Below the pieces are notes generated by a model, which saw only the letters and a list, made by a program, of their open reading frames with translations, had not been told where the DNA came from and searched no databases. Below are positions 19,300 to 46,913 of a stretch of 64,000 nucleotides of DNA, one piece after another. Each line of letters opens with the position of its first letter. The first letter of the stretch is position 1. The position numbers and the translations under genes are program-made. The stretch covers positions 92,627 through 156,626 of the forward strand of contig JAVDPC010000016.1 of NCBI GenBank assembly GCA_031296915.1. The letters are read 5' to 3'. The DNA is from Cerasicoccus frondis (GTDB lineage: Bacteria; Verrucomicrobiota; Verrucomicrobiia; Opitutales; Cerasicoccaceae).

Positions 19300-19300
19300 G

Positions 19301-19341
19301 CAGCGTGCCGCTGCACCCATAGATTTCGCCAATGGCGAAAT
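19301..19341 (+). repeat. two-hairpin 3'-end element, copy A
   Basis: It starts 2 bases after the gnd stop codon. Hairpin 1 is cagcg-tgc-cgctg, then linker acccataga, then hairpin 2 atttcgcc-aat-ggcgaaat. It shares linker and architecture with copies at 19447, 38970 and 46870, with different but still complementary stems. Confidence 0.7.
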
Positions 19342-19367
19342 ACGGAGGGGCAACAGATTATTTACCA

Positions 19368-19398
19368 ACCGCCGGGTTCGCGCCCGGCGGTTTTTTTT
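19368..19398 (+). terminator. strong intrinsic terminator of gnd
   Basis: accgccggg pairs with cccggcggt around a 5-6 base loop and is followed by eight T residues. It lies about 70 bases after the gnd stop, behind the two-hairpin element. Confidence 0.9.
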
Positions 19399-19446
19399 CC
19401 CTCGTTATACGAATACGATTCTATCAGAGCCACCTTGCCTCACCAC

Positions 19447-19489
19447 ATTTGCGCAATGCGCAAATCGATCGATGCAACCGGAGGTTGCC
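19447..19489 (-). repeat. two-hairpin 3'-end element, copy B
   Basis: Read on the minus strand it begins one base after the stop of the 19491 gene: hairpin 1 gcaac-ctccg-gttgc, linker atcgatcg, hairpin 2 atttgcgc-att-gcgcaaat. Same orientation relative to its gene as the other copies. Confidence 0.7.
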
Positions 19490-19490
19490 T

Positions 19491-20183
19491 TCAGTTGAGG
19501 CCGTCCTGGCCCATGAAGGTCAGGGTTTCGGCGACGTAGTTGAGCGCGCGGCGGGCTTCGGTGAAGCGGTTGCCCAGGGCCTGATAGCAATCCGTCAGGC
19601 AATACTCATGCGCGAGGTGGTGATCCCCTGCTGCTCGGTAATGCGCCTGTCCGATGTTTTCATAATAGTTGAGCGCAGGCGCGCCACGATATGTTGCCCG
19701 GTAATCGACGTGCGGGCGGAACAGCCCGGTGACCACGAGGGACCGCTCCGCCAAACACACGGTTAAATAAAAGCGCTCGCAAAAGCCTGCCTGCTGGATC
19801 TGCGACATCACGTCGACAGCATAGAACGCGGCCTGGCGTTTGCCGTTTTGATTGCCATTAAAGACACGCGAAGTGGACATGGAATCCGCCATGAGCGACG
19901 CCACGTAGTCGGCGAGATCGCGGTCCTCCAAGCCACACTCAGTGAAGCGGTGACGCACGAGCACGTAAAAATAGAGGCGCGGCGAAATGTTGATTGGCAA
20001 AGGCTGTTCGAGCACGGCCTGAAAGACGGCCGGTTCATCCAGCAACTGGTCCCGCATAGGCGGGTCAGCAAGTAATGCGATTAAGGCCTCGGCGGCAGAG
20101 CCGTCAGGCGCCAGGACCGACTGCAAAAACGCGAGGTCAGCGTTCGTCAGCCCGTCGCGACATATTGGTTGCACGAGCTTCAT
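19491..20183 (-). CDS. hypothetical helical protein
   Basis: A 230-residue soluble protein starting at ATG 20183 (the frame is open to 20297 but that segment contains no coding signal). It is predominantly helical, with FLQSVLAPDGSAAEALIALLADPP, PRLYFYVLVRHRF and a C-terminal GQAHYRAAGDHHLAHEYCL helix that resembles a TPR-like hairpin. I do not recognise the family. It ends directly at copy B of the two-hairpin element. Confidence 0.65.
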   Translation of the reverse strand: MKLVQPICRDGLTNADLAFLQSVLAPDGSAAEALIALLADPPMRDQLLDEPAVFQAVLEQPLPINISPRLYFYVLVRHRFTECGLEDRDLADYVASLMADSMSTSRVFNGNQNGKRQAAFYAVDVMSQIQQAGFCERFYLTVCLAERSLVVTGLFRPHVDYRATYRGAPALNYYENIGQAHYRAAGDHHLAHEYCLTDCYQALGNRFTEARRALNYVAETLTFMGQDGLN

Positions 20184-20283
20184 GGCGTTCACATCTAAGC
20201 ATAGCTTATGCCAGTAAACACCCTTTGGCAAGTACCCATTACTGAAGCAGTTAGCGAACCTTACGCTTGCGCTTATAAGACAA

Positions 20284-20312
20284 AGCCCGGCGGACAAACG
20301 TCACGCCGGGCT
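20284..20312 (-). terminator. intrinsic terminator for the coiled-coil/HTH gene
   Basis: agcccggcg / cgccgggct is a 9-bp perfect stem with an 11-base loop, followed on the minus strand by TTTGTCTT. It lies 24 bases after the stop of the 20336 gene. Confidence 0.8.
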
Positions 20313-20335
20313 CATCAGGGGAGGGATGATGAAAA

Positions 20336-20731
20336 TTAGATGTTGTCGTATTCGCCCTTGCAGATCTTGGACACGACGGAGTAGCTGATTTCACGAGCCT
20401 TGGCGACCTGATTCATCGAGTATCCGCTTTCGACTTCGCCCTTGATCTCGTCGCGTAGCTCAGCGGTCACCTTGGTGCGCTTGCGGCGGGGAGCGCCTTC
20501 TGCCTTCTTCTTGGTGCTGCCTTTTTTGCGACCACGGAAGGTCACGCCAAAGTGTTCGATGAGGGCTTCAACGAGCGCCTTGGGGGTTTCATATTCGCTG
20601 GACTTGAAGAGCTGCTCCAGCTTTTGCGAAGCGGCCTTCTGTTCTTTAGCCAATTCCTTGAGTTCTTTTTCACGCGCTGCGAGAGCTTTTTTCTCAGCTT
20701 CGAGCGCTTTTAATTGATCAGCGATTTCCAT
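20336..20731 (-). CDS. coiled-coil protein with basic linker and C-terminal HTH
   Basis: A 131-residue protein. Residues 1-45 form a charged coiled coil (LKALEAEKKALAAREKELKE), then a short globular region, a Lys/Arg/Gly-rich linker (RGRKKGSTKKK, APRRKRTK), and a C-terminal helix-turn-helix (LRDEIKGEVESGYSMNQVAK, ISYSVVSKIC). The plan, oligomerising coil plus basic linker plus DNA-binding end, resembles H-NS or Lsr2-type nucleoid proteins without sequence identity to them. It is monocistronic, with its own terminator and a 110-base AT-rich promoter region. The nucleoid role is an inference. Confidence 0.65.
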   Translation of the reverse strand: MEIADQLKALEAEKKALAAREKELKELAKEQKAASQKLEQLFKSSEYETPKALVEALIEHFGVTFRGRKKGSTKKKAEGAPRRKRTKVTAELRDEIKGEVESGYSMNQVAKAREISYSVVSKICKGEYDNI

Positions 20732-20844
20732 GAATTTGATATCGGGTTTTCGTGGTAAAGGCTAGAACCAAAACGCATGATCACACGTGCGCAAGCACTA
20801 ATTTTAAACAACGTGAATTTATTAATTTACCGGTAAGTCGAACT

Positions 20845-22677
20845 TTAATTACTTACACTAAGTGGTATGCGTATATGAACCATGCCCTCAGAGAGACCTC
20901 CCACTCGCTTGCCCTGATGCTTCTCAAACAAGCGCAACATGGGCGTATTATCCGGGGCAACAAGCGCCCACAATGAGTCAAGGCCACGGCGATGCGCAAT
21001 CGCCATCATGCGTTGCAGCAACAGGCTTCCCAGCCCATGGCGCCGCATTTCTTCATGAACAACGAAGGCGACTTCCGCCGTTTGCCCATCGTCTTCCAGG
21101 AAATAGCGACCCACTGCGCGTAAGCGTTGACGTGGCCCACGGCGCTCAAAAACACCTAACGCAAGGTCTTTTTCCTGATCGACTCCAACCAGTTCACTCG
21201 CGCGTTCACGCGACATGCGTTGAACGCTATAACCATAGCGCTTTTGAATTGTTTCCGCTGTGTGTGAATAAAAGAACTCTTGTAAATTACGTTCATCAGA
21301 CGGGTGTAACGGCCTCAACACATAGTCTTTTTCCCTTATACGAATGCGCTGAAATTCTACACCGCCAATTTCTTTTACCGGCCGAGGCACCAGTTTTTCG
21401 TAAGAAGCAATGAGGTTCCTTTCCCGCGCCGAGCGCAGTAATGCTTCTCGGAATTTTGGATCGGCGATTTGAATTAATTCCAACGCTCGCTCGCGAACAT
21501 TGCGCCCGCGCAAAGTGGCGATCCCGTGCTCGGTCACAATAAAATGAATATCCGCGCGACTGCCCACGAGCCCAGCGCCCTCGGACAAAAAGGGCACGAT
21601 GCGCGAGGCCTGGCCGCCCTTGGCTGTAGATGGCAAAGCAATGATTGGCAGCCCATCCGGGCTCAACACCGCGCCGCGCGTGAAGTCCATCAGCCCGCCT
21701 ATCCCACTGTAAAAACGCCCCTTCACCGACGCCGCAACTTGCCCCGTCAAATCGACTTCCATGGCGCTGTTGATCGCCACGACTTTCCGGTTCTTAGCAA
21801 TCTGCGCAATGTTGTTCGTGTATTCCGTGGGTCGAAATGAAATGTGCGCATTTTCGTGGATAAAGTCATACAGCGCCCGCGACCCCACGCAGAACGACGC
21901 CACCGTGTGACCGCGGTTGAGTTGCTTTTCCGAGTTGTCCACGGCGCCGCACTCGATGAGCTCGCGCACGCCATCACTGAACATTTCAGTGTGTACGCCC
22001 AGATGTCGGTGATCCTTCAGCGCCCGGATCGCGCGGTCGGGAATGTCCCCGATGCCCACTTGCAAAGTCGAGCCGTCTTCCACGAGTTGCGCCAGGTATT
22101 CACCAATTTTACTGGCGACGGCCGCGTCCTCCTCATCCGGCGTCCACTCTGGCAGTTCAGCCTCAGCCTCCAGATAATAATCGATCTCGCTGGTGTGCAA
22201 AAATGTTTCGCCAAAGGTCCGAGGGAGCCGGGGGTTAATTTGTGCAACCACAACCTGCGCCGCACGGCAGGCAGCATGCACGACATCCACGCTCACGCCG
22301 AGCGAGCAGTAGCCTTGGTTGTCAGGCGGGGACACCATGATCAGCGCAGCGCGCAGAGGCACAACGCCTTCCAGGAAGAGCGAGGGCAACTCACTTAAAA
22401 AGCACGGCGTATAATCCGCCACCCCGGCATTGACCGCCTCGCGAATCCCAGGCCCCATGAAAAACGCATTCGCCTTAAAAGTATGACGTCGCTTTTCGTC
22501 AATCCAGGGCGTGGGCCCATAGGTGCGGATGTGCGCAAGCTCGATGTCCGCCAATGTATTTTGAGCCGCGAGCATGTGCTCCATCAGCATCTGAGGGCAA
22601 GCAGCGCCGCTGCCAATAAAAACACGGCTCCCGGGCAAGGCGATCCGGGGCCAATCTGCGGAGGTTAAGGGCTTCAC
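20845..22677 (-). CDS. acetyl-CoA hydrolase/transferase - GNAT fusion
   Basis: A 610-residue two-domain protein. Residues 1 to about 430 are a class I CoA-transferase of the acetyl-CoA hydrolase / 4-hydroxybutyrate CoA-transferase type: SPPDNQGYCSLGVSVD, VQVGIGDIPD-like sequence, HTEMFSDGVREL and the region RPTEYTNNIAQIA. Residues about 445-605 are a GNAT acetyltransferase (DYVLRPLHPSDERNL, then AEVAFVVHEEMRRHGLGSLL with the acetyl-CoA loop). The catalytic Glu probably lies in PTEYTNN. The fusion suggests that CoA-ester handling and protein or small-molecule acetylation are coupled. It is a single intact frame on its own transcript. Confidence 0.9.
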   Translation of the reverse strand: MKPLTSADWPRIALPGSRVFIGSGAACPQMLMEHMLAAQNTLADIELAHIRTYGPTPWIDEKRRHTFKANAFFMGPGIREAVNAGVADYTPCFLSELPSLFLEGVVPLRAALIMVSPPDNQGYCSLGVSVDVVHAACRAAQVVVAQINPRLPRTFGETFLHTSEIDYYLEAEAELPEWTPDEEDAAVASKIGEYLAQLVEDGSTLQVGIGDIPDRAIRALKDHRHLGVHTEMFSDGVRELIECGAVDNSEKQLNRGHTVASFCVGSRALYDFIHENAHISFRPTEYTNNIAQIAKNRKVVAINSAMEVDLTGQVAASVKGRFYSGIGGLMDFTRGAVLSPDGLPIIALPSTAKGGQASRIVPFLSEGAGLVGSRADIHFIVTEHGIATLRGRNVRERALELIQIADPKFREALLRSARERNLIASYEKLVPRPVKEIGGVEFQRIRIREKDYVLRPLHPSDERNLQEFFYSHTAETIQKRYGYSVQRMSRERASELVGVDQEKDLALGVFERRGPRQRLRAVGRYFLEDDGQTAEVAFVVHEEMRRHGLGSLLLQRMMAIAHRRGLDSLWALVAPDNTPMLRLFEKHQGKRVGGLSEGMVHIRIPLSVSN

Positions 22678-22805
22678 TGTCTATAGCTTATGCACAAACC
22701 CGAAGATTATCACGCAAATACTTCACTTTTGCCGGACAAGCGCGCTGACAGGAAATTGTGCATCGCCCCGACACACGCAGCTTTGATTAATGCTGGAACG
22801 CTCAA

Positions 22806-23552
22806 CTATTTAGAAGTTCGGATAATCTTGAGCGCCCCGGATCGATCATCGAGGCGAAAAGTGCCCGCAACTTTTTTCAGGTACTCATCCGTGGCTTTAC
22901 GACAGCCTCCCCAGTCCATGTAATCATCTAAAATGATACAACCTCCGACAACCAGCTTGGGGTAAATCCGCTCCAAACAAGTCATGACGGGGTCATACCA
23001 GTCAACATCGATGTGTGCGAACGACACCGCCCCATCTACTAGGAGCGTATCCTGAACCAATCCTTTTATCAACCGCACACTACGTTCTTCCAGATCAACG
23101 CCAAATCGCTCGAAATTACCTTGGACAATGGTGATCAGGTCATTTTCGTACCCGTAGTATTTATCGCCCTCAATACCGACGGAATCACCTTTGAGGATAT
23201 TCTGATAGCGTCGGTGTACATCATCCGAGTCTTCATCCGTTGGGGGCGGGATCATGCCAAAAACATCATAAACCAGTTGAGGTCGCTGAGTTGACTTGGT
23301 CTTGGCGATCAAAATCGAAGAACCGCCCAATGCACAACCCGCTTCGATGAAAGCGCCCTCCAACTTCAAGGTCTCGATTTCGTTGATGCTGTTTACAATC
23401 GAAGCGAGCTTCCGTTCACTCAGGTAAGTTAGTTTGCGCATCTTAATCTCGGTGATTAAATGACGTTTGGCGCTGTCAAGCTGAACGAGCGCCCATTTGT
23501 TAACCAATCGGCTAGCGGTCCTTCTTGCCTTTAACTTAAGTTTCGCGATCAT
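22806..23552 (-). CDS. TylF/MycF-family O-methyltransferase
   Basis: A 248-residue SAM-dependent methyltransferase of the macrocin-O-methyltransferase (TylF) family. After a basic N-terminal helix, FIEAGCALGGSSILIA (about 72-87) is the SAM-binding loop, HIDVDWYDPVMTCLERIYPKL carries the metal-binding Asp pair, and GGCIILDDYMDWGGCRKATDEYL is the diagnostic C-terminal motif. Such enzymes methylate sugar hydroxyls in antibiotics and surface glycans. The gene is more AT-rich than its neighbours and stands alone, suggesting acquisition. Confidence 0.85.
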   Translation of the reverse strand: MIAKLKLKARRTASRLVNKWALVQLDSAKRHLITEIKMRKLTYLSERKLASIVNSINEIETLKLEGAFIEAGCALGGSSILIAKTKSTQRPQLVYDVFGMIPPPTDEDSDDVHRRYQNILKGDSVGIEGDKYYGYENDLITIVQGNFERFGVDLEERSVRLIKGLVQDTLLVDGAVSFAHIDVDWYDPVMTCLERIYPKLVVGGCIILDDYMDWGGCRKATDEYLKKVAGTFRLDDRSGALKIIRTSK

Positions 23553-23806
23553 ATTGAGTAGTCAGCAACAATCGTTACGTATTTGAGTAAAATACTAAAC
23601 AACTAAGCCCGAGCAACGTTATTCAGTAAACTAAACAGGGCGACCCTATGCTCCATACTGACCGAATACTTCACTGCTTTCTCGTTGCTGGAACACTACT
23701 GAAGTGATGCCCCAACCAACGCTTAATAGCACATAAAGTTAATAAAATTTCCTTCGGCGGTAACGCCAGTTTGCTTTTGGCGGTGGGCTGTGCTTCAGTT
23801 TTGACT

Positions 23807-24922
23807 GTGAGTTTTTCTGACATTCGTTGCCTGTTGATCCTTGTCCTGACCAGTTGGCTAGTGGGCTGCGACAGGCAGCCCAAAGATGGCCTGGGAACCG
23901 CTAACCTGCCCGACAGCTCGCGCTATGAAGGCCAATTCCAAGGCGGACTCTTTCATGGCCAGGGAAAACTCCAGTGGCGACATGGCGGTTATTACGAAGG
24001 TGAGTTCACCCATGGGCTGATCGAGGGCGAAGGCGTATTCATCCACCCCGATGGCGCGCGAGAAGAGGGGCACTTCGTCAACGGCCAACTGGACGGCAAG
24101 GGCAAACGCCGCACCCCGGATGGAGCCTTCTACGAAGGCGAGTTCGATAACGGCGAACTCCACGGCAAGGGCGTCTTCAAAAATGATCGCGAATACTACC
24201 ACGGAGACTGGGTCAATGGCCGCAAGTCCGGCCAAGGCAGCTACATCAAGCAGGGCATGGGCGAATACAAAGGACAATTTTACGACGACGAAATTGCGGG
24301 CGTTGGCGTCCTTAACTACGAAGATGGCGTACGCATCGAGGGGCAGTTTGACCGCGGTGCGCCGCAAGGCAAAGCAGTTGTCACCAGCCCTGGCGGCGGG
24401 CGACTCGAAGCAAATTTCGTCAAGGGACGCGCCTTGGGGCCTGGCACACAGACCACCGAAAACGGCGGCCAATACGTGGGGGAGTTCGTCGCTGGCAAGT
24501 GGCATGGCAAGGGACAGTTTACCGACGCCGAAGGCAACATCTACCGAGGCGAATTCAAGGAGGGCCTGCGCGACGGCTACGGGAAAATTCTCTACGCCGA
24601 CGGTCGCGAATTTCATGGCAACTTCGCCGATGACCTACCCCATGGCCAAGGCTCTATCGAATACCCGAGCAGCGCGCGGTATGCAGGCGCCTTCGAGCAA
24701 GGCCTGCCCCACGGCGAAGGCGTTTACGAATTCCCCAATCGCGATCGCTACGTCGGCGAATTCGCCGGAGGCCTGTTCGAAGGTCAAGGCACGCTGATCT
24801 TTGCACCGGAATCCGGCAAAGCGCCCGTGAGCGGGATTTGGCATCGCGGCGAATACGTGGGCCAACCCACACAAGCCCCCCAGCCTACCGCCGGTGACCC
24901 CATTCGCATCCTGGTCAAGTAG
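23807..24922 (+). CDS. MORN-repeat lipoprotein
   Basis: About 370 residues. The GTG at 23807 gives a signal ending at lipobox SWLVGC; TTG codons at 23801 and 23771 are alternatives. The mature chain is about 13 tandem MORN repeats of 22-24 residues (YEGEFxxGxxHGxGxxxxxDG), nearly filling the protein, then a short Pro-rich tail. MORN repeats form extended beta-hairpin rods that bind lipids or proteins. As a lipoprotein it would be tethered to a membrane surface. The central repeats (about 165-215) are the least regular. A hairpin follows the stop. Confidence 0.85.
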   Translation: MSFSDIRCLLILVLTSWLVGCDRQPKDGLGTANLPDSSRYEGQFQGGLFHGQGKLQWRHGGYYEGEFTHGLIEGEGVFIHPDGAREEGHFVNGQLDGKGKRRTPDGAFYEGEFDNGELHGKGVFKNDREYYHGDWVNGRKSGQGSYIKQGMGEYKGQFYDDEIAGVGVLNYEDGVRIEGQFDRGAPQGKAVVTSPGGGRLEANFVKGRALGPGTQTTENGGQYVGEFVAGKWHGKGQFTDAEGNIYRGEFKEGLRDGYGKILYADGREFHGNFADDLPHGQGSIEYPSSARYAGAFEQGLPHGEGVYEFPNRDRYVGEFAGGLFEGQGTLIFAPESGKAPVSGIWHRGEYVGQPTQAPQPTAGDPIRILVK

Positions 24923-24929
24923 GCCTGAA

Positions 24930-24948
24930 ACTGCGGAGTTTCCGCAGT
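24930..24948 (+). terminator. hairpin after the MORN gene
   Basis: actgcgga-gtt-tccgcagt, an 8-bp perfect stem 7 bases after the stop, without a T-run. It sits between convergent genes. Confidence 0.5.
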
Positions 24949-24964
24949 GCGATTACTGCGCGGC

Positions 24965-25564
24965 TCACTTTTCCAACACCACCCGCGCCCAGCGGACTTC
25001 TGGTTTGTGTTTGAATATACTGGGCTGGTCCTCGATGCGAAGAATGCACCGCAAACCGAGTTCTTTGGCCGCATTCACTGTCCGATCAACATCCGTTGGG
25101 TGAACTTTCAGGCCCAAGCCAGGCGGACCGTTGCGCAGGCTCAACGCAAGGCGTCCGCCGGAAACAAGCAGCGGTGCGAGTCGCTCGAATGCCGCCCGGC
25201 GCTCGGCCTCACTGAGGTGATGCCAAACGCCATCCACCAGCATAAAACGAAACGACGCCTCACCACCAACCAGGCTATCAAGCAGCGGGAGGCTGTCTTG
25301 CCGCCAGTCTATCGCCAAACCAGTGTACGCTGCTTGAGCGGCTTGGAGAAACTCAGGCATCGGCTCAATTGCAGTCACCTGAAATCCCAGGCGCGCCAAC
25401 GCCGCCGCATTCTGCCCCGCCCCGGCGCCCAAGTCTAAAACCCGAGCAGGCGCCTTCGGTAGAAACGGCAGAAAATCCCGATTCGTTTCCAGGAAATTTA
25501 ATTGCTGACTGGACTCAACAAACCGTTCGATTGCCCGGTCATAACCCTGAACGCCCGCCACCAT
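24965..25564 (-). CDS. class I SAM-dependent methyltransferase
   Basis: A 199-residue small-molecule-type methyltransferase. RVLDLGAGAGQNAAALARLG (about 41-60) is SAM motif I, IEP at the end of strand 2, LVDGVWHHLSEAERRAAFERL is motif post-II and LLVSGGRLALSLRNG is motif III. It starts 6 bases after the ExbB-like gene and is the last gene of the operon that begins at 30140. Its substrate and link to the envelope genes are unknown. Confidence 0.85.
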   Translation of the reverse strand: MVAGVQGYDRAIERFVESSQQLNFLETNRDFLPFLPKAPARVLDLGAGAGQNAAALARLGFQVTAIEPMPEFLQAAQAAYTGLAIDWRQDSLPLLDSLVGGEASFRFMLVDGVWHHLSEAERRAAFERLAPLLVSGGRLALSLRNGPPGLGLKVHPTDVDRTVNAAKELGLRCILRIEDQPSIFKHKPEVRWARVVLEK

Positions 25565-25570
25565 GAGCCG

Positions 25571-32283: not shown

Positions 32284-32397
32284 GGTCAGTGGCCGGGTCC
32301 TGTGCAACGTCGAACCGGTGAACTCCCCCAGGTCCGGAAGGAAGCAAGGGCAACCAGGATTCACGTGTGCCGCAGGGCGCCTGGCCACTATTTTTTT
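32284..32397 (+). ncRNA. ffs: signal recognition particle RNA (small bacterial type)
   Basis: The diagnostic SRP apical domain is present: ccaggtccggaaggaagcaa at about 32329-32348, with the GGAA tetraloop and the asymmetric Ffh-binding loop. Flanking arms agtggccggg and cctggccact close the hairpin, giving an RNA of about 105 bases of the 4.5S type. T7 at 32390-32397 terminates it. It directs ribosomes to the membrane with Ffh and FtsY. The following TPR gene must start after this RNA, at 32442. Confidence 0.95.
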
Positions 32398-38195: not shown

Positions 38196-38969
38196 ATGGC
38201 CGAAATTTCCACCACACCCGTCGGCGTCAAAGTCCAAAACCTGAGCAAGCGTTTTGGCGAACAGGTCGTGCTCGAAGACGTGTCCTTCGACGTGAAGCCG
38301 GGCGAAATCTTCGTGCTCATGGGACCCAGCGGCGCGGGTAAATCCGTCCTGCTCCGCCACCTCGTGAACCTGGAAAAGCCGGACTCCGGCAGTGTCTTGA
38401 TCGACGGCAAAGACGCCGCCGACCCAGCTACGCATAAAGCGATTCGCACGGCGCTCGTCTTTCAGGCTGGGGCGCTGTTCAACTCGATGAGCGTCTTCGA
38501 CAACCTCGCGTTTTACCCCCGCGAACACCGCCTCTACAACAAATCCACCTTGCGAGACAAAGTTGAGCGCGTCCTGAAAATCCTCCACATCGAAGACGCT
38601 GCCCAAAAGCTGCCCGCCGAGCTCTCCGGCGGCATGCGCAAGCGCGTGGCCATCGCCCGCGCGCTCGTCATGGAGCCGCAACTGCTGCTCTACGATGAGC
38701 CCACGTCCGAGCTCGACCCGGTCACCGCAGCCAACATTTCCGAGATCATCGGCACGCTCAAGGAAGAGTTTTCCGTGACCAGCATTGCGGTCTCCCACGA
38801 CCGCGACTTGGCGCTCGGCATCGCGGACCGCGTTGGCCTCCTCATGGACGGCAAGTTGATCGCCCTCGCCACCCCCGAGGAGCTCCAGCAAAGCAACGAC
38901 CCACGCGTCAAAGAATTCATGGCGCCTAAGATCAACATCCAGGACCCGCGTTTCCGGAAGATATCCTAA
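38196..38969 (+). CDS. mlaF: MlaF-family ABC transporter ATPase
   Basis: A 257-residue ABC ATPase paired with mlaE. Walker A GPSGAGKS is at 43-50, the signature LSGGMRKRVAIARAL at about 145-159, Walker B LLLYDEPTSELDP follows, and the H-loop is in AVSHDRDL. The C-terminal TPEELQQSNDPRVKEFM helix is typical of MlaF. It powers lipid transport. Copy C of the two-hairpin element begins directly after its stop codon. Confidence 0.92.
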   Translation: MAEISTTPVGVKVQNLSKRFGEQVVLEDVSFDVKPGEIFVLMGPSGAGKSVLLRHLVNLEKPDSGSVLIDGKDAADPATHKAIRTALVFQAGALFNSMSVFDNLAFYPREHRLYNKSTLRDKVERVLKILHIEDAAQKLPAELSGGMRKRVAIARALVMEPQLLLYDEPTSELDPVTAANISEIIGTLKEEFSVTSIAVSHDRDLALGIADRVGLLMDGKLIALATPEELQQSNDPRVKEFMAPKINIQDPRFRKIS

Positions 38970-39013
38970 GCAACGTCCCGTTGCATCGATAGATTTTCGC
39001 ATTGCGAAAATGG
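38970..39013 (+). repeat. two-hairpin 3'-end element, copy C
   Basis: Immediately after the mlaF stop: hairpin 1 gcaac-gtccc-gttgc, linker atcgatag, hairpin 2 attttcgc-att-gcgaaaat. This is the cleanest copy and gives the family consensus. Confidence 0.75.
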
Positions 39014-39047: not shown

Positions 39048-39077
39048 ATTCCTTAGTGAGTCATGAGCTCACGGAAT
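39048..39077. terminator. hairpin between convergent genes
   Basis: attcc and gtgag pair with ctcac and ggaat around a 7-base loop with a 3-base bulge. No T-run on either side. It could stabilise both 3' ends. Confidence 0.4.
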
Positions 39078-39096
39078 AGTAAGCAGCGACCTGGCC

Positions 39097-39441: not shown

Positions 39442-39590
39442 GGCGGCATGCTGGAGTTTGCCACGCGAATGAGCAAGCAGACGTTTTATAAAATGACAGC
39501 CATGTTAATATCTACCTTTGTAACAAAAGAGTCTGGATTTTTTCACGCCCATCGCCCACGGTGGGGAAAACCCGAATACCCTGAACTGTC

Positions 39591-40874
39591 ATGGAGCAAA
39601 ATGTTATTAGCGTCATCATGGGCGGCGGTCGCGGCACGCGGCTTTACCCGCTGACTAAAGAACGTTGTAAGCCGGCTGTCCCGCTGGCAGGCAAGTATCG
39701 CCTCGTCGATATTCCCATCAGCAACTGCCTCAACTCCGGCATCAACCGCATTCACCTGCTTTCGCAGTTTAACACCGCGTCGCTGCACAACCACATTCAG
39801 TCGACGTATCAGTTTGACCCCTTCGGCGGCGGCTATGTGGACATCATGTCCGCTGAACAGACTGACTCCGGCGAGACCTGGTACCAGGGCACTGCGGACG
39901 CCGTGCGCCAGAACCTGCACCACTTCAACGACGGCAAGAACGACCTCTTCCTCATCCTCTCCGGCGACCAGCTTTACCGCATGGACTTCCGGAAGATCAT
40001 CGACCACCACAACAAACTCGGCTCAGACTTAACGATCGCCGCCAAGGCCATGCACAAGTCTGAAGTCGCCGGCCTGGGCGTCATGCGCGTGGGCGACGAT
40101 TACTCCATCCAGGAATTTGTCGAAAAGCCGACTGATCCAGCCGTGATCGAAAGCCTCATCATCGGTGATAAGCTGCGCTCCACCCTCGATGGCAACCCGG
40201 AGGACGTGGTCTTGGCCTCGATGGGCATTTATGTCTTCTCCGCCCGAATTATGCGCGATGCGCTGAACGGCGACGAGACCGACTTCGGCAAAGAGATCAT
40301 CCCTGGCATGCTGGGCAAGATCTCGATGAACAGCTACATCTTTGACGATTACTGGGAAGACATTGGAACCGTCGCGGCATTCTTCGAAGCCAACCTGGCG
40401 CTGACCGATAATGTGCCGCCCTTCAATTTCTTTGACGACAAAGCGCCCATTTACACCCGCGCCCGCTACCTGCCGGCGACCAAGGTCAATCAGGCCGAAG
40501 TTTCCCGCACGCTCTTTGGCGGCGGCAGTATTATCTCTCAGTGCAAGGTGCACCACTGTGTGATCGGGGTCCGCTCCATGATTGGCGATGGCACTGAGCT
40601 GACTGACGTTGTCATGATGGGCGCCGACTGGTACGAAACCGACGAAGACCGCGCGGAAAACGCCGATCTGCAGCGCCCCAACATTGGCTTGGGCCGGAAC
40701 TGCAAAATCAAGAGCGCCATCATCGATAAGAACGCCCGCATTGGCCACGACGTCGAGCTTTCCCCCGAAGGCAAGCCGGACGGTTGGTCTGAGGGCGACC
40801 TCTATGTCCGCGACGGCGTCTTGATGGTCATGAAAAACGGCGTGGTGGCCAGCGGCACCAAAGTGCGCCCGTAG
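39591..40874 (+). CDS. glgC: glucose-1-phosphate adenylyltransferase
   Basis: A 427-residue ADP-glucose pyrophosphorylase, first committed enzyme of glycogen synthesis. The catalytic N-terminus has MGGGRGTRLYPLTKERCKPAVP, then LSGDQLYRMD, and EFVEKP (sugar-phosphate contact). The C-terminal left-handed beta-helix (IGLGRNCKIKSAIIDKNARIG) is complete. Length and motifs are standard. The next gene, a PhzF homologue, starts 12 bases later; no other glg gene is adjacent. Confidence 0.96.
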   Translation: MEQNVISVIMGGGRGTRLYPLTKERCKPAVPLAGKYRLVDIPISNCLNSGINRIHLLSQFNTASLHNHIQSTYQFDPFGGGYVDIMSAEQTDSGETWYQGTADAVRQNLHHFNDGKNDLFLILSGDQLYRMDFRKIIDHHNKLGSDLTIAAKAMHKSEVAGLGVMRVGDDYSIQEFVEKPTDPAVIESLIIGDKLRSTLDGNPEDVVLASMGIYVFSARIMRDALNGDETDFGKEIIPGMLGKISMNSYIFDDYWEDIGTVAAFFEANLALTDNVPPFNFFDDKAPIYTRARYLPATKVNQAEVSRTLFGGGSIISQCKVHHCVIGVRSMIGDGTELTDVVMMGADWYETDEDRAENADLQRPNIGLGRNCKIKSAIIDKNARIGHDVELSPEGKPDGWSEGDLYVRDGVLMVMKNGVVASGTKVRP

Positions 40875-40886
40875 CAACGTTCTTCA

Positions 40887-41666
40887 GTGAGCATTCCCCT
40901 GTATCAGGTTGACGCGTTTGCCGACGCGCCTTTTCAGGGGAATCCCGCTGCCGTATGCCCGCTGGAATCCTGGCCGGACAACGCAGTCCTCCAGGCTATC
41001 GCGGCGGAGAATAATCTGTCCGAAACCGCATTCTATGCGCCAGAAGGCGACGGCTTTCGCTTACGCTGGTTCACGCCTGTGGACGAAGTGGACTTGTGCG
41101 GTCACGCGACATTGGCGACGGCGTTTGTGCTCTTTCGCCAGCGACCAGAGCTCATATCCGGCGTGACGTTTTACTCAAACAGCGGGCCGCTCCACGTCAC
41201 GGCTCAAGGTGAGGAGATCACACTCGATTTCCCCGCCACGCCAACCAAAGCTTGGTATCCCCCGCACGAACTGGTCGACTCGATTGGGGTGACGCCAATC
41301 GAGTGTCGCCAAGGCATGGACTACCTCGCGGTTCTGCCCGATGAAGCCACCGTTCGTGGGGTCGAGCCAGTATTCGACCTGCTTCGCCAATTGGACCTGC
41401 GAGGCGTCATCATCACGGCGCCTGGCGACGAGGTAGATTTCGTTTCCCGCTTTTTCGCCCCCAAATACGGCATCAACGAAGACCCCGTAACCGGCTCCGC
41501 GCATTGCGCCCTGACGCCCTACTGGGCTGAGAAATTGGGCAAAACCGAGCTGCTCGCGAAGCAATTATCCACTCGCAGCGGCAGGCTTTCCTGTTCCCTG
41601 CGCGGGGAACGGGTATTCATTTCCGGCCGCGGACGACTCTACTTAGAGGGCAAAATCCATCTGTGA
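40887..41666 (+). CDS. PhzF-family isomerase-like protein
   Basis: A 259-residue protein of the PhzF / diaminopimelate-epimerase fold. The GTG start gives IPLYQVDAFADAPFQGNPAAVC, the family N-terminus; the general acid/base Glu is in NNLSETAFY (about residue 46); CGHATLAT and GSAHCALTPYWAE are the other conserved turns. Most members are isomerases of unknown substrate, and only a few make phenazines. It follows glgC by 12 bases; no phenazine gene is present. Confidence 0.9.
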   Translation: MSIPLYQVDAFADAPFQGNPAAVCPLESWPDNAVLQAIAAENNLSETAFYAPEGDGFRLRWFTPVDEVDLCGHATLATAFVLFRQRPELISGVTFYSNSGPLHVTAQGEEITLDFPATPTKAWYPPHELVDSIGVTPIECRQGMDYLAVLPDEATVRGVEPVFDLLRQLDLRGVIITAPGDEVDFVSRFFAPKYGINEDPVTGSAHCALTPYWAEKLGKTELLAKQLSTRSGRLSCSLRGERVFISGRGRLYLEGKIHL

Positions 41667-41720
41667 GTGCGCAGCGCTTTTTCCTTTAATCTTTTTCCTT
41701 TAATCTTTTAGATAAGTTTC

Positions 41721-41864
41721 ATGTATCCACCATTTGAATTCAACAACTTGCTCGGCCCGCTCCTCGTGCTTGGCGCGTTGGCTACTGCGGCAAAGCTAGT
41801 CGTCTTACTCGCTGTCTATAAAGAGTACCTGAAGCGTCAGGAAGACGCCTGGGCCAAGAGCTAA
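41721..41864 (+). CDS. 47-residue single-helix membrane protein
   Basis: A short gene starting at ATG 41721 and ending TAA 41864. It encodes MYPPFEFNNLLGPLLVLG, a hydrophobic helix (about 9-31) and a charged tail (YKEYLKRQEDAWAKS). The codon use and membrane-protein pattern look real. No family is recognised. Just upstream, the 14-base unit ctttttcctttaat is repeated in tandem. Confidence 0.6.
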   Translation: MYPPFEFNNLLGPLLVLGALATAAKLVVLLAVYKEYLKRQEDAWAKS

Positions 41865-41882
41865 GCGGCGCAAGCCCCTCCC

Positions 41883-42392
41883 ATGACTTCACGTTTCATT
41901 TTCGGCGGTCTAGCGCTGATAAGCGGCTTTGTCGGCTTAGTGTGCGGCGTGGCGGAGTGGGTATTGCAGATCATGATTCTGCCCGAGGTCGATTGGGCGG
42001 AGCCATTTGCAACGCTCACCAACATGTGTTGGTTCGGGCATATTTTCTTTTACGGAGTAGGTCTTTGCTTTGCCGGGCTTGGTCTGATGTCAGCCATTAA
42101 GCCAGCGCCCGCGCAAACTTCGACGACTCAGCCTCCAGCATCCACTACCGAGCAACAGACCCCGGCCCCTCCCCCCTTGCCTCCCAAAGCCACATCCAAC
42201 AGCAAGGACCAGGTTGACCTCTGGCAGGCAGAATCGGCGCCCTTTCCCAAACCCGATAAGATCGAGCATCCCGAAGACGAGGAATCACTCTGGCAGGCCG
42301 AATCCATGCCCTTTCCCAAAGTGGAGATTCCGCCAGAGGAAGAAGAGGAAGCGGACTCACCCAACGACGAAACACCACGTCGCGATCAGTAG
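41883..42392 (+). CDS. membrane protein with tandem acidic C-terminal motif
   Basis: A 169-residue protein. Two membrane helices (about 5-28 and 45-70) are followed by a Pro/Thr/Gln-rich disordered tail in which DLWQAESAPFPK and SLWQAESMPFPK repeat about 24 residues apart, then an acidic end (PPEEEEEADSP). Short linear motif repeats on a disordered tail suggest a docking site for another protein. No family is recognised. It follows the small membrane protein by 18 bases. Confidence 0.6.
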   Translation: MTSRFIFGGLALISGFVGLVCGVAEWVLQIMILPEVDWAEPFATLTNMCWFGHIFFYGVGLCFAGLGLMSAIKPAPAQTSTTQPPASTTEQQTPAPPPLPPKATSNSKDQVDLWQAESAPFPKPDKIEHPEDEESLWQAESMPFPKVEIPPEEEEEADSPNDETPRRDQ

Positions 42393-42584
42393 AGAGCTCG
42401 CGGCTGCAAGCCGGATGTTTCATTCGCAGGGAACGTAGCCCGCGCAATGTGGTCAAAATTAATCCATATCGTAGACCCGGTATGCGTTGTGCTAAGTTAC
42501 ATTCAGCGGGCAAATCGCATTTGAATGTTGATTTTCCCGCATAATTCTTCAGATTAACCACTAACCCGAGAGGGCCAACCCATC

Positions 42585-43271
42585 ATGAGTGCGCACGATT
42601 TTGATAATTCATCCGACGGAGATTGGGAAAACAGCGAAGAACTGAGTTGGAACGAATTTGATTGGCAGCGTTATCTGAAGCAAAACGAAAAAGAAATCGC
42701 TGACTTTCTAGGGCACTACCACCGGCTCAAGCACAAGCCCGGACACCTCGACGAAATTGCCCAGCTGATGCGTTGGGAAGTCGAAGACTGGGGCGGAGCA
42801 GATTTCGAAGAAACTGACGAAGACTTCGAACAGGAGGAAAAAGATGCCCTCGATACCAATGACATGGAGCCTTACTCAGTGCACAAGCACCCGGTCTACA
42901 TCGTCAGCCACGGCCTCTATCAACACCTCTTCCACTGCTGGGAGCATTTCCTGACGCAGTCCAAGGGCGCCGTAGACGCTGTCATGGGCGCGAGATTTGC
43001 CTCCAGCCTTCACGTCGGCGAATTCAACGCCGTCATGGGCATCAATGCGCTCGACATGGGCGACTTCAACCTCGCCGTGTGCCACCTGAAAAACGGCCTT
43101 GCCGCCGTCAACCACACCATGGCCGTCCTTCAGGAGGTCAAGTGTGAGAACGTGCGCCTGCTTCAGGCCTTCCAGGGCGAAGTTCTCCAGGTCCTTTTTG
43201 ACCTGCGTGACCTCTGGCTCCGCGTCATGGCTGACTGCCGTGAGGAAGAACGCCGCGGCAAGGAACGTTAG
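42585..43271 (+). CDS. acidic hypothetical protein
   Basis: A 228-residue cytoplasmic-looking protein, very acidic for the first 90 residues (WENSEELSWNEFDW, DFEETDEDFEQEEKD), then helical with HPVYIVSHGLYQHLFHCWEHFL and MGINALDMGDFNLAVCHLKNG, which looks like a TPR-like hairpin pair. I know of no function. The start follows an AT-rich spacer of about 190 bases with GAGAGGG before the ATG. It is likely monocistronic. Confidence 0.6.
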   Translation: MSAHDFDNSSDGDWENSEELSWNEFDWQRYLKQNEKEIADFLGHYHRLKHKPGHLDEIAQLMRWEVEDWGGADFEETDEDFEQEEKDALDTNDMEPYSVHKHPVYIVSHGLYQHLFHCWEHFLTQSKGAVDAVMGARFASSLHVGEFNAVMGINALDMGDFNLAVCHLKNGLAAVNHTMAVLQEVKCENVRLLQAFQGEVLQVLFDLRDLWLRVMADCREEERRGKER

Positions 43272-43418
43272 TCAGCCTTCTGCTGACTGGCTTGAAGGTT
43301 CATCGGTTTGTAAACTGCGGTGTCCCTGTACACACCAAACTTTTCGAACCATACAAGTCGAGCAGCCTTACACACTTGACCCAGCGCGATTGGTCACCGT
43401 AACTGTGATCAATTGATT

Positions 43419-44750
43419 ATGTCGCTTAATCCCCGATGCTTCTTTGCCCTCTTCGCCGCGTTGGCGCTCAACCTTTCCGCGCAGGCTCCTCAAATCGCCG
43501 CTGGCCCAATGGTAGGCGCGCCCGAAATGCGCTCCATGCCGCTGTGGGTGCAAACTGATGGCCCAGCGGAAGTCGCCTTCGCCTACTGGCCCGAGGACCA
43601 AGACACTCAGCGCAAGGTGACCTCGGCCCAGACGACTACGCCGGAAAATGGCTTCGTGGCCAAAGCAACCGCAGGCCCTTTGGAGCCCGGAACGGTCTAC
43701 CGTTACGAGGTGCTGCTGGATGGAAAGAAAGCCGCCGGGGATGCGGAAATGAAATTCAAAACTACGCCGTATTACACCGACCGCGCGCCGCCGCCAGATT
43801 TCACTGTCGCGCTGGGCGGCGGGCACATTGTCAACGACCCGGCATACGATCCGCTCAATCGGACTCCGGGAGGCGGATATGAAATTTTCCTGGCGATCCT
43901 CGCCAAACAGCCCGACTTAATGATTTGGGCCGGCAATAACGTCCACTTGCGCGAGCCCGATTGGGGATCCCGTGCAGGCATGATCGCACGCTATTCCAAA
44001 AGCCGCGCCCAGCCCGAGCTCCAGCCGCTCCTCGCCGCGGTGCCCCAGGCCGCTACGGTTAGCCAAGGCGAAATCGGCCCGGCGAACACCGGCAAGCACT
44101 TCCGCAACTTGGCTGACGCGCAATCTGTATTTGAACTGTTCTGGGCTAACCCGCCGAGCGCACGCAGCGCCGATGGTCTGGCGACCAGCATTCGCTACGG
44201 CGACGCCGAATTTTTCCTGCTCGACGACCGCTCCAACCGCAGCCTGGATTTTGACGTGGAAAAGAACCGTGAAATCATGGGCGAGGCGCAATTGGCGTGG
44301 CTTCGGCAAGCGCTCAGAGAGAGCACCGCAGATTTTAAAATCATCGTCACCGGCTCATCCGCGCTCAGTCCTTCTGATTCCCAACTGAATCACAAAATTG
44401 CCCAGCATGAGCGCGACGGTATGCTTGATGACCTGAAAAGCGATAGAATCAGCGGCCTCATGTTCGTCAATGGCGGCAAGGATTTCGGCGAGTTCACCAA
44501 GATGGTGCGCGCCAACGCCCCAGACCTCTACGAGCTGAGCCTTGGCCCGCTAACGCAACGTCCGGCGGACGCCACCCGCGAGCTCAATTTCTTTCGAGTG
44601 CCCAGCAGCTCCACCTTCCAGCGGCAATTCGCGATGCTTAAATTTCATGGCGCAGAGAGCGATCGACAACTCACGGTTACGGTTTACAACGGTCTAGGCG
44701 ATCAACTGTGGACGCAGACTCTGGCGCTCAGCGACATGCAATACAACTAA
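43419..44750 (+). CDS. PhoD-like protein lacking metal ligands (probable pseudoenzyme)
   Basis: A 443-residue exported protein (signal 1-22) homologous to PhoD-type phosphodiesterases/alkaline phosphatases: an N-terminal fibronectin-like domain (AEVAFAYW) and a metallophosphatase core. The alignable framework is intact (NDPAYDPLNRTPGGGYEIF, LREPDWGSRAGMIARYSKSR, LFWANPP) but the catalytic positions are changed. The usual GSC becomes GGG; GDN becomes GNN (WAGNNVHLRE); the DDHDYGPN block becomes QGEIGPAN; the C-terminal SGDRH becomes NGGKD. These are the Fe/Ca ligands, so catalysis is unlikely while the fold is kept. ATG 43419 is preferred to TTG 43413. It is followed at 9 bases by hdeD. Confidence 0.8.
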   Translation: MSLNPRCFFALFAALALNLSAQAPQIAAGPMVGAPEMRSMPLWVQTDGPAEVAFAYWPEDQDTQRKVTSAQTTTPENGFVAKATAGPLEPGTVYRYEVLLDGKKAAGDAEMKFKTTPYYTDRAPPPDFTVALGGGHIVNDPAYDPLNRTPGGGYEIFLAILAKQPDLMIWAGNNVHLREPDWGSRAGMIARYSKSRAQPELQPLLAAVPQAATVSQGEIGPANTGKHFRNLADAQSVFELFWANPPSARSADGLATSIRYGDAEFFLLDDRSNRSLDFDVEKNREIMGEAQLAWLRQALRESTADFKIIVTGSSALSPSDSQLNHKIAQHERDGMLDDLKSDRISGLMFVNGGKDFGEFTKMVRANAPDLYELSLGPLTQRPADATRELNFFRVPSSSTFQRQFAMLKFHGAESDRQLTVTVYNGLGDQLWTQTLALSDMQYN

Positions 44751-44759
44751 CCACCAACC

Positions 44760-45323
44760 ATGGCTACTCCCATCAATCCGTTTGCCGGCATCACTCCGGA
44801 ACAGCTCAAGCAAAGCGCCGCCAAGGCCAAAACCGCGGGCATCATCCTGATTGTGCTGGGCGTGTTGGCTGTCATGTTGCCAGGTCTGTTCTCGGTCGGG
44901 CTCGAGTTGTTCCTTGGTTGGCTCATTCTGCTGGGTGGCCTGACACAAATCTTTTCCGCCCTATCGCATAAGGGCGTACATGGACAGGGCTGGGCGCTGA
45001 TCAACGGCGTGCTTGCGGCAATTGCCGGTGGCCTCCTTATTGCGAATCCCGTAATCGGCGTTATCGCGCTCACTGGCATGTTGGGCATTTTTTACGCGGT
45101 CGATGGCATTTTTAAAATCATCGCTTCCGTTCAGGCCAACGGTCAACCCGGGCGCGGCATTGTATTCATCAACGGCGTATTCGGCCTGATCATCGCGGGC
45201 ATCGCCTTCAGTGAATGGCCATCGGCCGCCCATTGGTTCATCGGCATCATCGTTGGCGTAAACTTCCTGATGGCTGGCATGACCCTGCTCAGCTTGGCCA
45301 GCGCCGCCAAGAAGAGCGCTTAA
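44760..45323 (+). CDS. HdeD-family membrane protein (DUF308)
   Basis: A 187-residue polytopic protein with six hydrophobic helices in two repeats of three, the HdeD / DUF308 pattern: GIILIVLGVLAVMLPGLFSVGLELFLGW, then GWALINGVLAAIAGGLLIANP and GIVFINGVFGLIIAGIAF. HdeD is associated with acid resistance in E. coli; the function elsewhere is unknown. The gene follows the PhoD-like gene by 9 bases, probably in one transcript. Confidence 0.9.
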   Translation: MATPINPFAGITPEQLKQSAAKAKTAGIILIVLGVLAVMLPGLFSVGLELFLGWLILLGGLTQIFSALSHKGVHGQGWALINGVLAAIAGGLLIANPVIGVIALTGMLGIFYAVDGIFKIIASVQANGQPGRGIVFINGVFGLIIAGIAFSEWPSAAHWFIGIIVGVNFLMAGMTLLSLASAAKKSA

Positions 45324-45330
45324 CTCGCGC

Positions 45331-45759
45331 CTAATTTTTGGAAGGATCGTCTTCCTGAGCCGTTTGTAAACGGCGGGATTTCGGTTCGAAAGGAAGCAGG
45401 AAGGCCTCGCGGAAATCATAACCATTGGTGAAATCCTCGGGCTGGTCATTCTCGGTCTTCCCGAGGACGCCCCACTCCACGAGATTGAAAACGATGTCGC
45501 CAAAGTCCTCGCAGCGCTTGATGCCCCAGTGCGTGAGCAACGTGTAAGCTAAAGGACCATACTGCTCCAACGCATAATCGCGGATGCCGGACAACAACTC
45601 CTGGCCCGATACATGACGCGTTTCGCGTTCTGGCTCGTCCTTGAGGGATTTGATGGTGTGGTCCAACCCCAGGCGCACAAAATGATAGGCGCCCGCATCG
45701 TAGCGGGTGTCTTCCTTGCGAATCAAGGCGACAACTTCATCGAAATCTTTCGCAGCCAT
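45331..45759 (-). CDS. Minf_1886-family protein
   Basis: A 142-residue protein of the uncharacterised Minf_1886 family, common in Verrucomicrobiota, Planctomycetota and Chlamydiota. DFDEVVALIRKEDTRYDAGAY, HVSGQELLSGIRDYALEQYG and KRCEDFGDIVFNLVEWGVLGKT are its conserved segments. It has no known catalytic residues. It converges on hdeD with an 8-base gap and supports the phylum assignment. Confidence 0.9.
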   Translation of the reverse strand: MAAKDFDEVVALIRKEDTRYDAGAYHFVRLGLDHTIKSLKDEPERETRHVSGQELLSGIRDYALEQYGPLAYTLLTHWGIKRCEDFGDIVFNLVEWGVLGKTENDQPEDFTNGYDFREAFLLPFEPKSRRLQTAQEDDPSKN

Positions 45760-45815
45760 GAAACGAAAGAGTGAAATTCCTCAATGCCGTCAGGTCAAGC
45801 AGCAGTTCCCCGCAC

Positions 45816-46205
45816 TCAGAAGAACTTCGAGATAAAATAGCGGTTGTTCGCCACCCGACGGTAACCCCACTCACTCAGCGCCGCAAAGATTCGGCTGCGA
45901 CGATAAAGCCGCTCCAACCACGTGCAGCCGCGCGCATGCGTCAATACACGGTAAATCGCCTCCGCCGAATGGGTGACCACGCCATCGGGTTCAACCAACC
46001 TCACGGCCTGTTCGAGCTCCGACTCCGGGATCTCTGGAAAGCACGCCAACATCTTTTGGTAAGGCTCGTAACGAACGGCGTCTCCAGTGCGTCGCTGTAG
46101 CCGGTGCGCCGATCGCATGCAAAACCCGCAATCGCCATCCCAAAGAAGAGTTGGCTTTGCCGGTGGCGATTCGACCCGCAGCTTCATCCCAACCATGCTG
46201 AACAA
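45816..46205 (-). CDS. DCC1-like thiol-disulfide oxidoreductase (DUF393)
   Basis: A 129-residue member of the DCC (DUF393) family. The hallmark DGDCGFCMRSAHRLQRR has the CxxC thiol pair near residues 26-29, as in thioredoxin-like redox proteins, followed by a conserved tail with RYEPYQK and a C-terminal YRRVANNRYFIS. Starts at M7 or M4 are possible. It is on the minus strand near Minf_1886 but about 60 bases away. The partner is unknown. Confidence 0.85.
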   Translation of the reverse strand: MFSMVGMKLRVESPPAKPTLLWDGDCGFCMRSAHRLQRRTGDAVRYEPYQKMLACFPEIPESELEQAVRLVEPDGVVTHSAEAIYRVLTHARGCTWLERLYRRSRIFAALSEWGYRRVANNRYFISKFF

Positions 46206-46243
46206 TTCTCATCGATTGTCCACTCACCATGCGCGACTAATAA

Positions 46244-46762
46244 CTAAGCATTGTCGGTCTTAGGCGCAGTCTTTTTTGCGGCTTTTCGAGTCGTCTTTTT
46301 GGTGGCTTTCTTGGCTGTTTTCTTGGTCGCAGCTTTCTTGACGGCTTTTTTAGCAGAGGTCTTTTTCGCGGCGGCTTTCTTAGTCGTCTTCTTAACAGCC
46401 TTTTTCGCTGCTTTTTTGGCGCCCTTCTTAGCCGCCTTTTTGGTGGCTTTCTTAGCAGGCTTGTCGGCGACTTTTTTCGCTACCTTCTTTTTCTTTTTGG
46501 CTTTTTTGCCAGCACCAGAGGTTTTGGCGTCGGCTTCCGCAGCGGCTTCTTCCGAGTAGATCGTTTCGTGGATTTTGCTCAAGTTGTCTTCGATCTTCTC
46601 GACGACAGGCGAAGTTAGCTCGTAAGTGGTGTTAAAGATTTTGGTGAGTGTGTCACAAGTCTTGTCGAGCAAGTCCTCGTGATAGTCGCGCGACTTAACT
46701 TTTTGCGTGCGGAGATACTTCTTCAGCTTCTTAGCAAGCTGGCCCTTTTTCAGTTTTTTCAT
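46244..46762 (-). CDS. histone-H1-like lysine-rich nucleoid protein
   Basis: A 172-residue protein starting at ATG 46762 (an upstream TTG at 46789 is less likely). The N-terminal half has a folded helical region (LLDKTCDTLTKIFNTTYELTSP, KIEDNLSKIHETIY), and the C-terminal half is almost pure Lys/Ala/Thr repeats such as KKATKKAAKKGAKKAAKK, the H1/HC-like tail that condenses DNA. It is comparable to histone-like proteins of Chlamydiae and Verrucomicrobia. The repeat DNA is a likely slippage site. Confidence 0.85.
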   Translation of the reverse strand: MKKLKKGQLAKKLKKYLRTQKVKSRDYHEDLLDKTCDTLTKIFNTTYELTSPVVEKIEDNLSKIHETIYSEEAAAEADAKTSGAGKKAKKKKKVAKKVADKPAKKATKKAAKKGAKKAAKKAVKKTTKKAAAKKTSAKKAVKKAATKKTAKKATKKTTRKAAKKTAPKTDNA

Positions 46763-46869
46763 AGCCTTGCCTTTCAGAGATTTAGGCAATGTTAGGCGTC
46801 GTATCAGCGTTTGGCAAGAAAACGTTACCCAGCATGAGTAAACGTAACGCCCTATCTTCTGTAGTCACC

Positions 46870-46913
46870 TATTTAGCGCACTGCGCAAAGCTATCGATGC
46901 AACGGGACGGCGC
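46870..46913 (-). repeat. two-hairpin 3'-end element, copy D
   Basis: On the minus strand it starts right at the stop of the 46914 gene: an imperfect hairpin 1 (gtcccgttgc arm retained), linker atcgatag, and hairpin 2 ctttgcgcagtgcgctaaat, which is the most degenerate. Orientation matches the other three. Confidence 0.6.

Follow-up and report, generated by a model that had tools for sequence, protein, structure and literature searches.

A double-hairpin repeat family at stop codons in Cerasicoccus frondis

Why does the same short double hairpin begin at the stop codons of four unrelated genes? The element in question lies in a 64,000-nt stretch of the Cerasicoccus frondis genome (contig JAVDPC010000016.1, positions 92,627 to 156,626), which we refer to as the window. 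A sequence-only reading of this stretch had described four copies, all in the same orientation relative to the gene, with paired substitutions in both stems and no T run, and had offered a mobile unit resembling repetitive extragenic palindromic (REP) elements as one of several possible roles. Overall, that interpretation was partly supported. The four copies probably belong to a genus-restricted, TAG-tagged, REP-like palindromic family whose units are copied and exchanged at stop codons and form a transcribed 3′-end structure. The element family is not a terminator and differs from an ordinary dispersed repeat.

Anatomy and stop-codon address of the element

All four copies were confirmed in the window, where the word GTTGCATCGATAGATTT occurs four times at up to three mismatches compared to 0.11 expected. 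The hairpins had to be re-measured. Hairpin 1 is a 6-bp stem with a 3-nt loop and is joined by an 8-nt linker to hairpin 2, which has an 8-bp stem and a 3-nt loop. Two hairpins in head-to-tail order make up the typical form, [stop]-SCARCS-TSC-SGYTGS-AYCS-ATAG-ATTTGCGC-N3-GCGCAAAT. The RNA folds of copies 1 to 3 consist of exactly these two hairpins (z scores of -3.05, -2.13 and -2.74 relative to shuffles), whereas copy 4 has decayed and folds no better than shuffles (z = +1.56). The gap between the stop codon and hairpin 1 is 0, 2, 0 and 0 nt for copies 1 to 4, and the stops are TAG, TGA, TAA and TAG. Pfam identified gnd as 6-phosphogluconate dehydrogenase and the gene labelled mlaF as an ABC ATPase, and the genes next to copies 2 and 4 had no Pfam match. 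At the Rfam gathering score the only match in the window was the bacterial small signal recognition particle RNA (gene at 32291-32389), with none for the element.

Using a word from the best copy at up to two mismatches, 15 places were found in the 5.8-Mb genome (69 contigs). A covariance model, R1, was built from 14 of the first 17 copies, chosen independently of their proximity to stop codons; the other three differed in hairpin-2 length. Position 1 of R1 lies 2 nt before hairpin 1. The paired substitutions recur genome-wide, as 97.4% of the cells in the training set are paired and 7 of the 14 pairs show two-sided changes. Covariation is strong in both stems. With the best 150 candidates scored, the genome search gave 134 matches at E<=10 and recovered all four window copies. 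The genome holds at least 76 copies of 26.7 bits or more, and many of the weaker matches are hairpin 2 read from the opposite strand. All copy counts are lower bounds, since only the best candidates were scored (150 in this genome, 117 per genome in relatives and 33 in a sample of the class). Chance was excluded as an explanation.

The stop-codon address held genome-wide. With codon-score gene calls made in this analysis, a same-strand stop ends between -5 and +3 of the model start in 40 of the 76 copies, compared to ~2% expected under random intergenic placement, and 21 of these 40 lie at exactly -2; hairpin 1 therefore directly follows the stop. A same-strand stop lies within 30 nt in 54 of the 76 copies, in keeping with the proposed common orientation, and a converging stop lies within 30 nt of the far end in two. 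Among 22 top-scoring loci of sister genomes, 16 were at -5 to +3, two at -25 and four elsewhere or without a gene call. The stops at the 40 copies are TAG (21), TAA (16) and TGA (3), an excess of TAG (Fisher p 0.008) over the 105 TAG, 157 TAA and 79 TGA of 341 sampled genes. The element thus has its left end against the stops of unrelated genes; TAG and TAA predominate among these stops, frequently with a C before them. The sequence-only reading would have given way to an ordinary dispersed repeat if the copies had lacked either enrichment at stops or covariation; they have both.

In a further six of the 76 copies the offset is -25, so that translation continues through hairpin 1 and stops at the TAG in the linker. 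The predicted proteins end in SVPLDR, NVPLHR, ILLHR or SLRLDR, while their element-free sister orthologs stop at or near the same place (WRRKS-stop and WRRKG-stop versus WRRKASVPLDR-stop). The junction therefore lies a few bases from the native stop even where that stop has been lost. These predicted frames show hairpin 1 read as a C-terminal tail, with the linker TAG ending the protein, in some genes. Palindromic elements of Rickettsia are likewise read in frame and become part of proteins; the present case differs in that the tails found are C-terminal and end at the element's own TAG. Judging from the protein ends listed, the decorated genes appear to lack an evident common pathway; they include what we take, from the look of the proteins, to be dnaA, recN, mutM and guaB. 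A general habit of hairpins after stops was rejected, as the 341 sampled gene ends gave no sharp peak for perfect 6-bp stems, and of the 12 listed ends that carry a stem of at least 5 bp at -3 to +5, three are the intact copies of the window and two belong to relatives of the family.

Two variant forms were noted. Six copies (L046, L048, L074, L081, L083 and L084), none with an Rfam match, have longer flanks in common, GGATACCTC...GGCGAAATTGATGGGAGTGTGG-like, lie mostly 340-820 nt from called genes on either side and possibly belong to a larger repeat carrying the double hairpin. In a longer form, hairpins 1 and 2 are separated by a third, GGATGCGTTGCATCC-like hairpin (in this genome, G000, at C5:259221, C9:206063, C2:87397, C23:10413 and C51:1038).

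Features of the four copies in the window, with strand and the evidence for each
Feature	Position	Strand	Evidence
R1 model span, copy 1	19298-19341	+	covariance-model match
Copy 1 hairpin 1, after gnd (stop TAG 19297-19299)	19300-19314	+	sequence, model match, fold
Copy 1 linker ACCCATAG	19315-19322	+	sequence
Copy 1 hairpin 2	19323-19341	+	sequence, fold
Terminator-like hairpin with T run, separate, downstream of copy 1	19367-19392	+	consensus match; 0.7 expected by chance in 1001-nt stretch
R1 model span, copy 2	19447-19490	-	covariance-model match
Copy 2 hairpin 1, 2 nt past stop TGA (19491-19493) of converging gene	19474-19488	-	sequence, model match, fold
Copy 2 linker ATCGATCG	19466-19473	-	sequence
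Copy 2 hairpin 2	19447-19465	-	sequence, fold
R1 model span, copy 3	38968-39011	+	covariance-model match
Copy 3 hairpin 1, after ABC ATPase gene ("mlaF"; stop TAA 38967-38969)	38970-38984	+	sequence, model match, fold, Pfam
Copy 3 linker ATCGATAG	38985-38992	+	sequence
Copy 3 hairpin 2	38993-39011	+	sequence, fold
R1 model span, copy 4	46872-46915	-	covariance-model match
Copy 4 hairpin 1, damaged, after the 46914 gene (stop TAG 46914-46916)	46899-46913	-	sequence, model match, fold
Copy 4 linker ATCGATAG	46891-46898	-	sequence
Copy 4 hairpin 2, damaged	46872-46890	-	sequence, fold

Orthologous gene ends and changes in the stems

At E<=0.01, R1 matched 4 of 54 genomes, all of one genus: this genome and three relatives, with 72, 68, 19 and at least 117 matches per genome, the last (G003) matching with every scored candidate. 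None of the 50 relatives outside the genus had a match at this threshold. A class sample of 188 genomes overlaps the 54-genome set and includes this genome as the sole representative of its genus; in that sample, this genome alone matched at E<=0.001. An ortholog comparison was seeded by 50 sites filled in this genome (stop within -30 to +25, protein of at least 110 aa) and recovered 138 of 150 possible ends in the three sister species. Hairpin 1 was found by the stop (-26 to +30) at 57 of the 138 ends and not at the other 81, compared to 9 of 2760 in shuffles. Filled ends numbered 35 of 47 in G003, 15 of 47 in G001 and 7 of 44 in G002, and three sites including gnd were filled in all four species, one of them resting on a weak G002 match. 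This mixture of filled and unfilled orthologous stops implies that copies persist between species, with gains or losses. The stop was TAG at 40 of the 57 ends with hairpin 1 compared to 32 of the 81 without it. At G001 and G003 ends, other short repeats split or trail the element: in several G001 copies hairpin 1 is interrupted by a CGGGCTGAGCCTGTCGAAGCC-like repeat, and several copies are followed by GGTAGGGCGCAGTCTCCAGACAAGCCGC.

The stems change on both sides at once. Across 75 orthologous pairs of hairpin 1 (450 cells), 339 cells were the same, 68 had two-sided paired changes, nine had one-sided paired changes and 34 were broken in one or both members. For hairpin 2, restricted to the 42 of 75 pairs with the same geometry (336 cells), the numbers were 281, 40, 5 and 10. 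Pooled, this amounts to 108 two-sided versus 14 one-sided paired changes and 44 broken cells, in pairs that are not independent where they share a species. The gnd element is kept in all four species, with hairpin 1 of the GCAGCG type in three and CCAACC/GGTTGG in G002, and with three distinct inner stems of hairpin 2; the gene facing gnd has a GCGC/GCGC hairpin 2 here compared to CGCC/GGCG in two sisters. The changes also cluster. For hairpin 1, pairs with 0, 1, 2, 3 and 4 changed coupled sets numbered 19, 15, 10, 22 and 9, versus 6.5, 22.0, 27.7, 15.5 and 3.2 if the sets were independent; in the remaining columns (hairpin 1 plus linker), 44 of 750 cells had changed. We read this block-wise change as whole-module replacement mixed with ordinary change, because a larger share of one-sided states would be expected from slow compensatory evolution alone. 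For the clustered two-sided changes, slow compensatory evolution of an RNA is no better an explanation than module replacement or copying from a template. The paired changes had been taken to favour an RNA structure over a DNA site, a preference that is not supported in that form, because single-stranded DNA hairpins in elements of the REP or IS200/IS605 type depend on pairing to the same degree.

Coupling between loop and linker

A mutual-information test was performed on all 97 distinct copies from the examined loci, selected with a fuzzy motif that required no fewer than 4 of 6 pairs in hairpin 1 and 6 of 8 in hairpin 2. Column 10 in the loop and column 21 in the linker were C-G in 52 copies and G-C in 33, while columns 14 and 19 were C,C in 56 and T,T in 36. 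The mutual information was 0.73 for 10-21 and 0.77 for 14-19, compared to 0.77-0.90 for the three hairpin-1 stem pairs that vary, and both couplings held separately in the 44 copies of this genome and the 53 others. Columns 8-10, 10-12, 10-14 and 12-14 stayed within shuffles; columns 17-21, 17-19, 14-17, 3-10 and 10-17 were above shuffles at lower values (0.16-0.42). Haplotype linkage is unlikely to lie behind the two couplings, because nearer columns are uncoupled and the effect persists when this genome and the others are analysed separately. Some constraint on reassortment remains, as columns 3 and 17 correlate with 10 and 21 (mutual information 0.33-0.42). In a covariation alignment of 66 of 95 distinct sequences, 10:21 and 6:19 were each paired in 97.0% of rows, with 24 and 28 two-sided changes, respectively; these percentages are optimistic because the 29 omitted sequences were mostly irregular. 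At orthologous sites, 10:21 changed on both sides in 22 cases and singly in 11, and the stem pair 3:17 in 25 and 9.

Since 6:19 and 10:21 cross, no nested secondary structure holds them both. The couplings at linker bases 19 and 21 are a new detail and suggest a compact tertiary fold. A linker running up the stem, with base 19 reading the pair 6:14 and base 21 pairing with the loop, would explain both. Tentatively, and with the odds against it, hairpin 1 and the linker may form a compact tertiary module of this kind, with base 21 pairing loop base 10, that is recognised in single-stranded DNA or RNA and placed or replaced specifically at stops. In this proposal, and as tentative as the whole of it, base 19 would be T with A-T and C with G-C, like a third strand parallel to the purine strand.

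Mobility and competing explanations

The arrangement of the copies resembles that of known REPs. According to PMC3733652, the GTAG superfamily includes abundant repeats in Opitutus terrae, and its members lie beside the 3′ ends of genes, mostly as dimers with outward tags, with ends that often give a TAG stop. Here, of the copy pairs within 700 nt, ten are arranged with the stop sides facing outward (two of them mutually overlapping) and none inward, and 46 of the 76 copies lie at a stop. Both stops of convergent gene pairs are decorated in six cases, compared to ~0.07 expected. The stems of 6 and 8 bp fall in the 5-13 bp range of GTAG-type REPs, with complementary variation and at least 76 dispersed copies. 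Compared with the superfamily as described there, the element shares short stems, small loops, a tag-like TAG by the hairpins, complementary stem changes between subfamilies, outward dimers, a location after genes and ends that give TAG; the likeness to the O. terrae families is one of description. It differs in the rarity of strict GTAG, the head-to-tail double-hairpin unit, the near base-exact stop register, the loop-linker coupling and the lack of a transposase gene beside the copies. In the literature covered (titles and abstract openings, with subscription papers largely outside coverage), no description of this double-hairpin family was found.

The stop itself carries a possible trace of a joining enzyme. 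C precedes TAG or TAA at 43 of 67 filled ends, compared to 75 of 262 genes in the sample and 25 of 69 orthologs lacking the element, a sequence statistic whose rows are not independent. TnpA-REP cleaves REPs at CT (PMC8266576), and the excess of C before the stop would fit such cleavage. A 4-nt CTAR target was rejected as the whole cause of the address.

Several results weigh against a mobile REP-like family. Only 75 of 952 CTAR sites that are noncoding or stops are stops, so a CT-A-R target alone is insufficient, and 30 of the 76 copies lie neither at -5 to +3 nor at -25 of a stop. RAYT/TnpA-REP families are recognised by copies flanking a Y1 transposase gene, an association by proximity that was not found: R1 copies were beside none of the Y1 genes at three loci in this genome and 18 in relatives (flanks of 1.5 to 5 kb), and in G002, with its 19 R1 matches, a Y1 gene was not detected at E<=0.001. 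The analysis yielded neither a clean boundary of insertion nor a target-site product. Among the 97 copies, hairpin 1 is preceded by CTAG in 12, CTAA in 11, ATAG in four and GTAG in three, and hairpin 2 by ATAG in 37, GTAG in ten, AGAG in ten and TTAG in four. Strict GTAG is thus rare, compared to more than 90% of members in most GTAG families, whereas the looser TAG is common. Membership in the GTAG/RAYT REPs is not established, because strict GTAG is rare and no Y1 gene seen has adjacent copies.

The Y1 genes have surroundings of their own. The 308-aa Y1 protein of L018, in this genome, resembles REP_Tyr_transpos at 53.2 bits, under the cut-off of 80. In this genome, an IS200-like Y1 gene (L016) lies amid several other palindromic repeat families (L105:4400-7300), for example TAGACGGGGGTTTCAACCCCCG, which gives the genome a further TAG-tagged palindrome family next to a Y1 gene. 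The L017 Y1 gene (L106:4723-5425) is flanked by 74-nt inverted repeats that are 92% complementary, and in G003 a REP-like Y1 transposase gene (L114:1091-1719) occurs as two overlapping frames and is probably broken.

For the REP-like family that we favour, the modules would spread, and still be swapped, in single-stranded form by an HUH enzyme of the Y1/RAYT type acting in trans and joining next to CT. Copies at stop codons would persist because neither the gene nor its promoter is broken. The transcribed hairpins may then act as an mRNA 3′-end structure, by analogy with Escherichia coli REPs within 15 nt of the stop, for which ribosome stalling has been proposed, with 260 of 496 REPs proposed to act on translation (Liang et al. 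2015, as cited in PMC12306157). As in E. coli, a hairpin repeat stands right after the stop; here hairpin 1 lies 0-3 nt past it and is sometimes translated in frame. In a transcript, hairpin 1 would be hidden under a ribosome at the stop, with hairpin 2 still exposed. A role at the 3′ end or in translation is plausible.

The strongest rival, which we consider rather unlikely, is a cis-acting structured RNA of the mRNA 3′ end that is selected at the stop. In that case the terminating ribosome would open hairpin 1 and alter the exposure of hairpin 2, affecting termination, recycling, or access of RNase or protein; ordinary duplication would have made the copies, and selection on the RNA fold would make the stems covary. 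The near base-exact register, the single orientation, the retention at the same stops in sister species, the covariation of both stems and the resemblance of the 10:21 and 6-14/19 couplings to tertiary RNA contacts all suit this view, and absence from other genera would also fit a young cis element. It accounts poorly for the presence and absence of the element between sisters at the 138 ends, the block-wise change with its excess of two-sided over one-sided changes, the outward inverted pairs, as in REP families, and decorated genes without an evident common pathway. Covariation as a by-product of DNA copying in hairpins, by quasipalindrome correction through template switching, with the repeats as inert remnants of unselected structure, is improbable. 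The ratio of 108 to 14 and the decay of window copy 4 agree with it, but arm-to-arm copying leaves unexplained why base 21 follows base 10 and base 19 follows 6:14, as well as the stop-codon address. An intrinsic terminator or integron attC-like site, suggested by hairpins after a stop codon, is very nearly excluded: as had been noted for the four copies, there is no T run (at least 5 T in the 8 nt after hairpin 2 in 0 of 97 copies), a separate terminator-like hairpin, this one followed by a T run, stands downstream of the gnd copy, so the element is not the terminator, and decorated genes such as gnd have sister orthologs that are decorated or not and thus do not behave as cassettes, the comparison with attC being one of general anatomy. 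The intrinsic terminator, attC and a known Rfam family were all rejected.

The REP-like reading preferred here, which the enrichment of a genome-wide family at stops supports, makes this genus a natural data set for the old question of why REPs occupy the 3′ ends of genes. The almost base-exact register, the filled and unfilled orthologous stops in four species and the in-place stem swaps allow targeting, selection and RNA function to be separated by simple tests. The loop-linker coupling provides a specific, falsifiable structural prediction for a kind of repeat that is usually drawn as a plain hairpin. If the tertiary module proved true, the translation stop would be the address of a mobile element.

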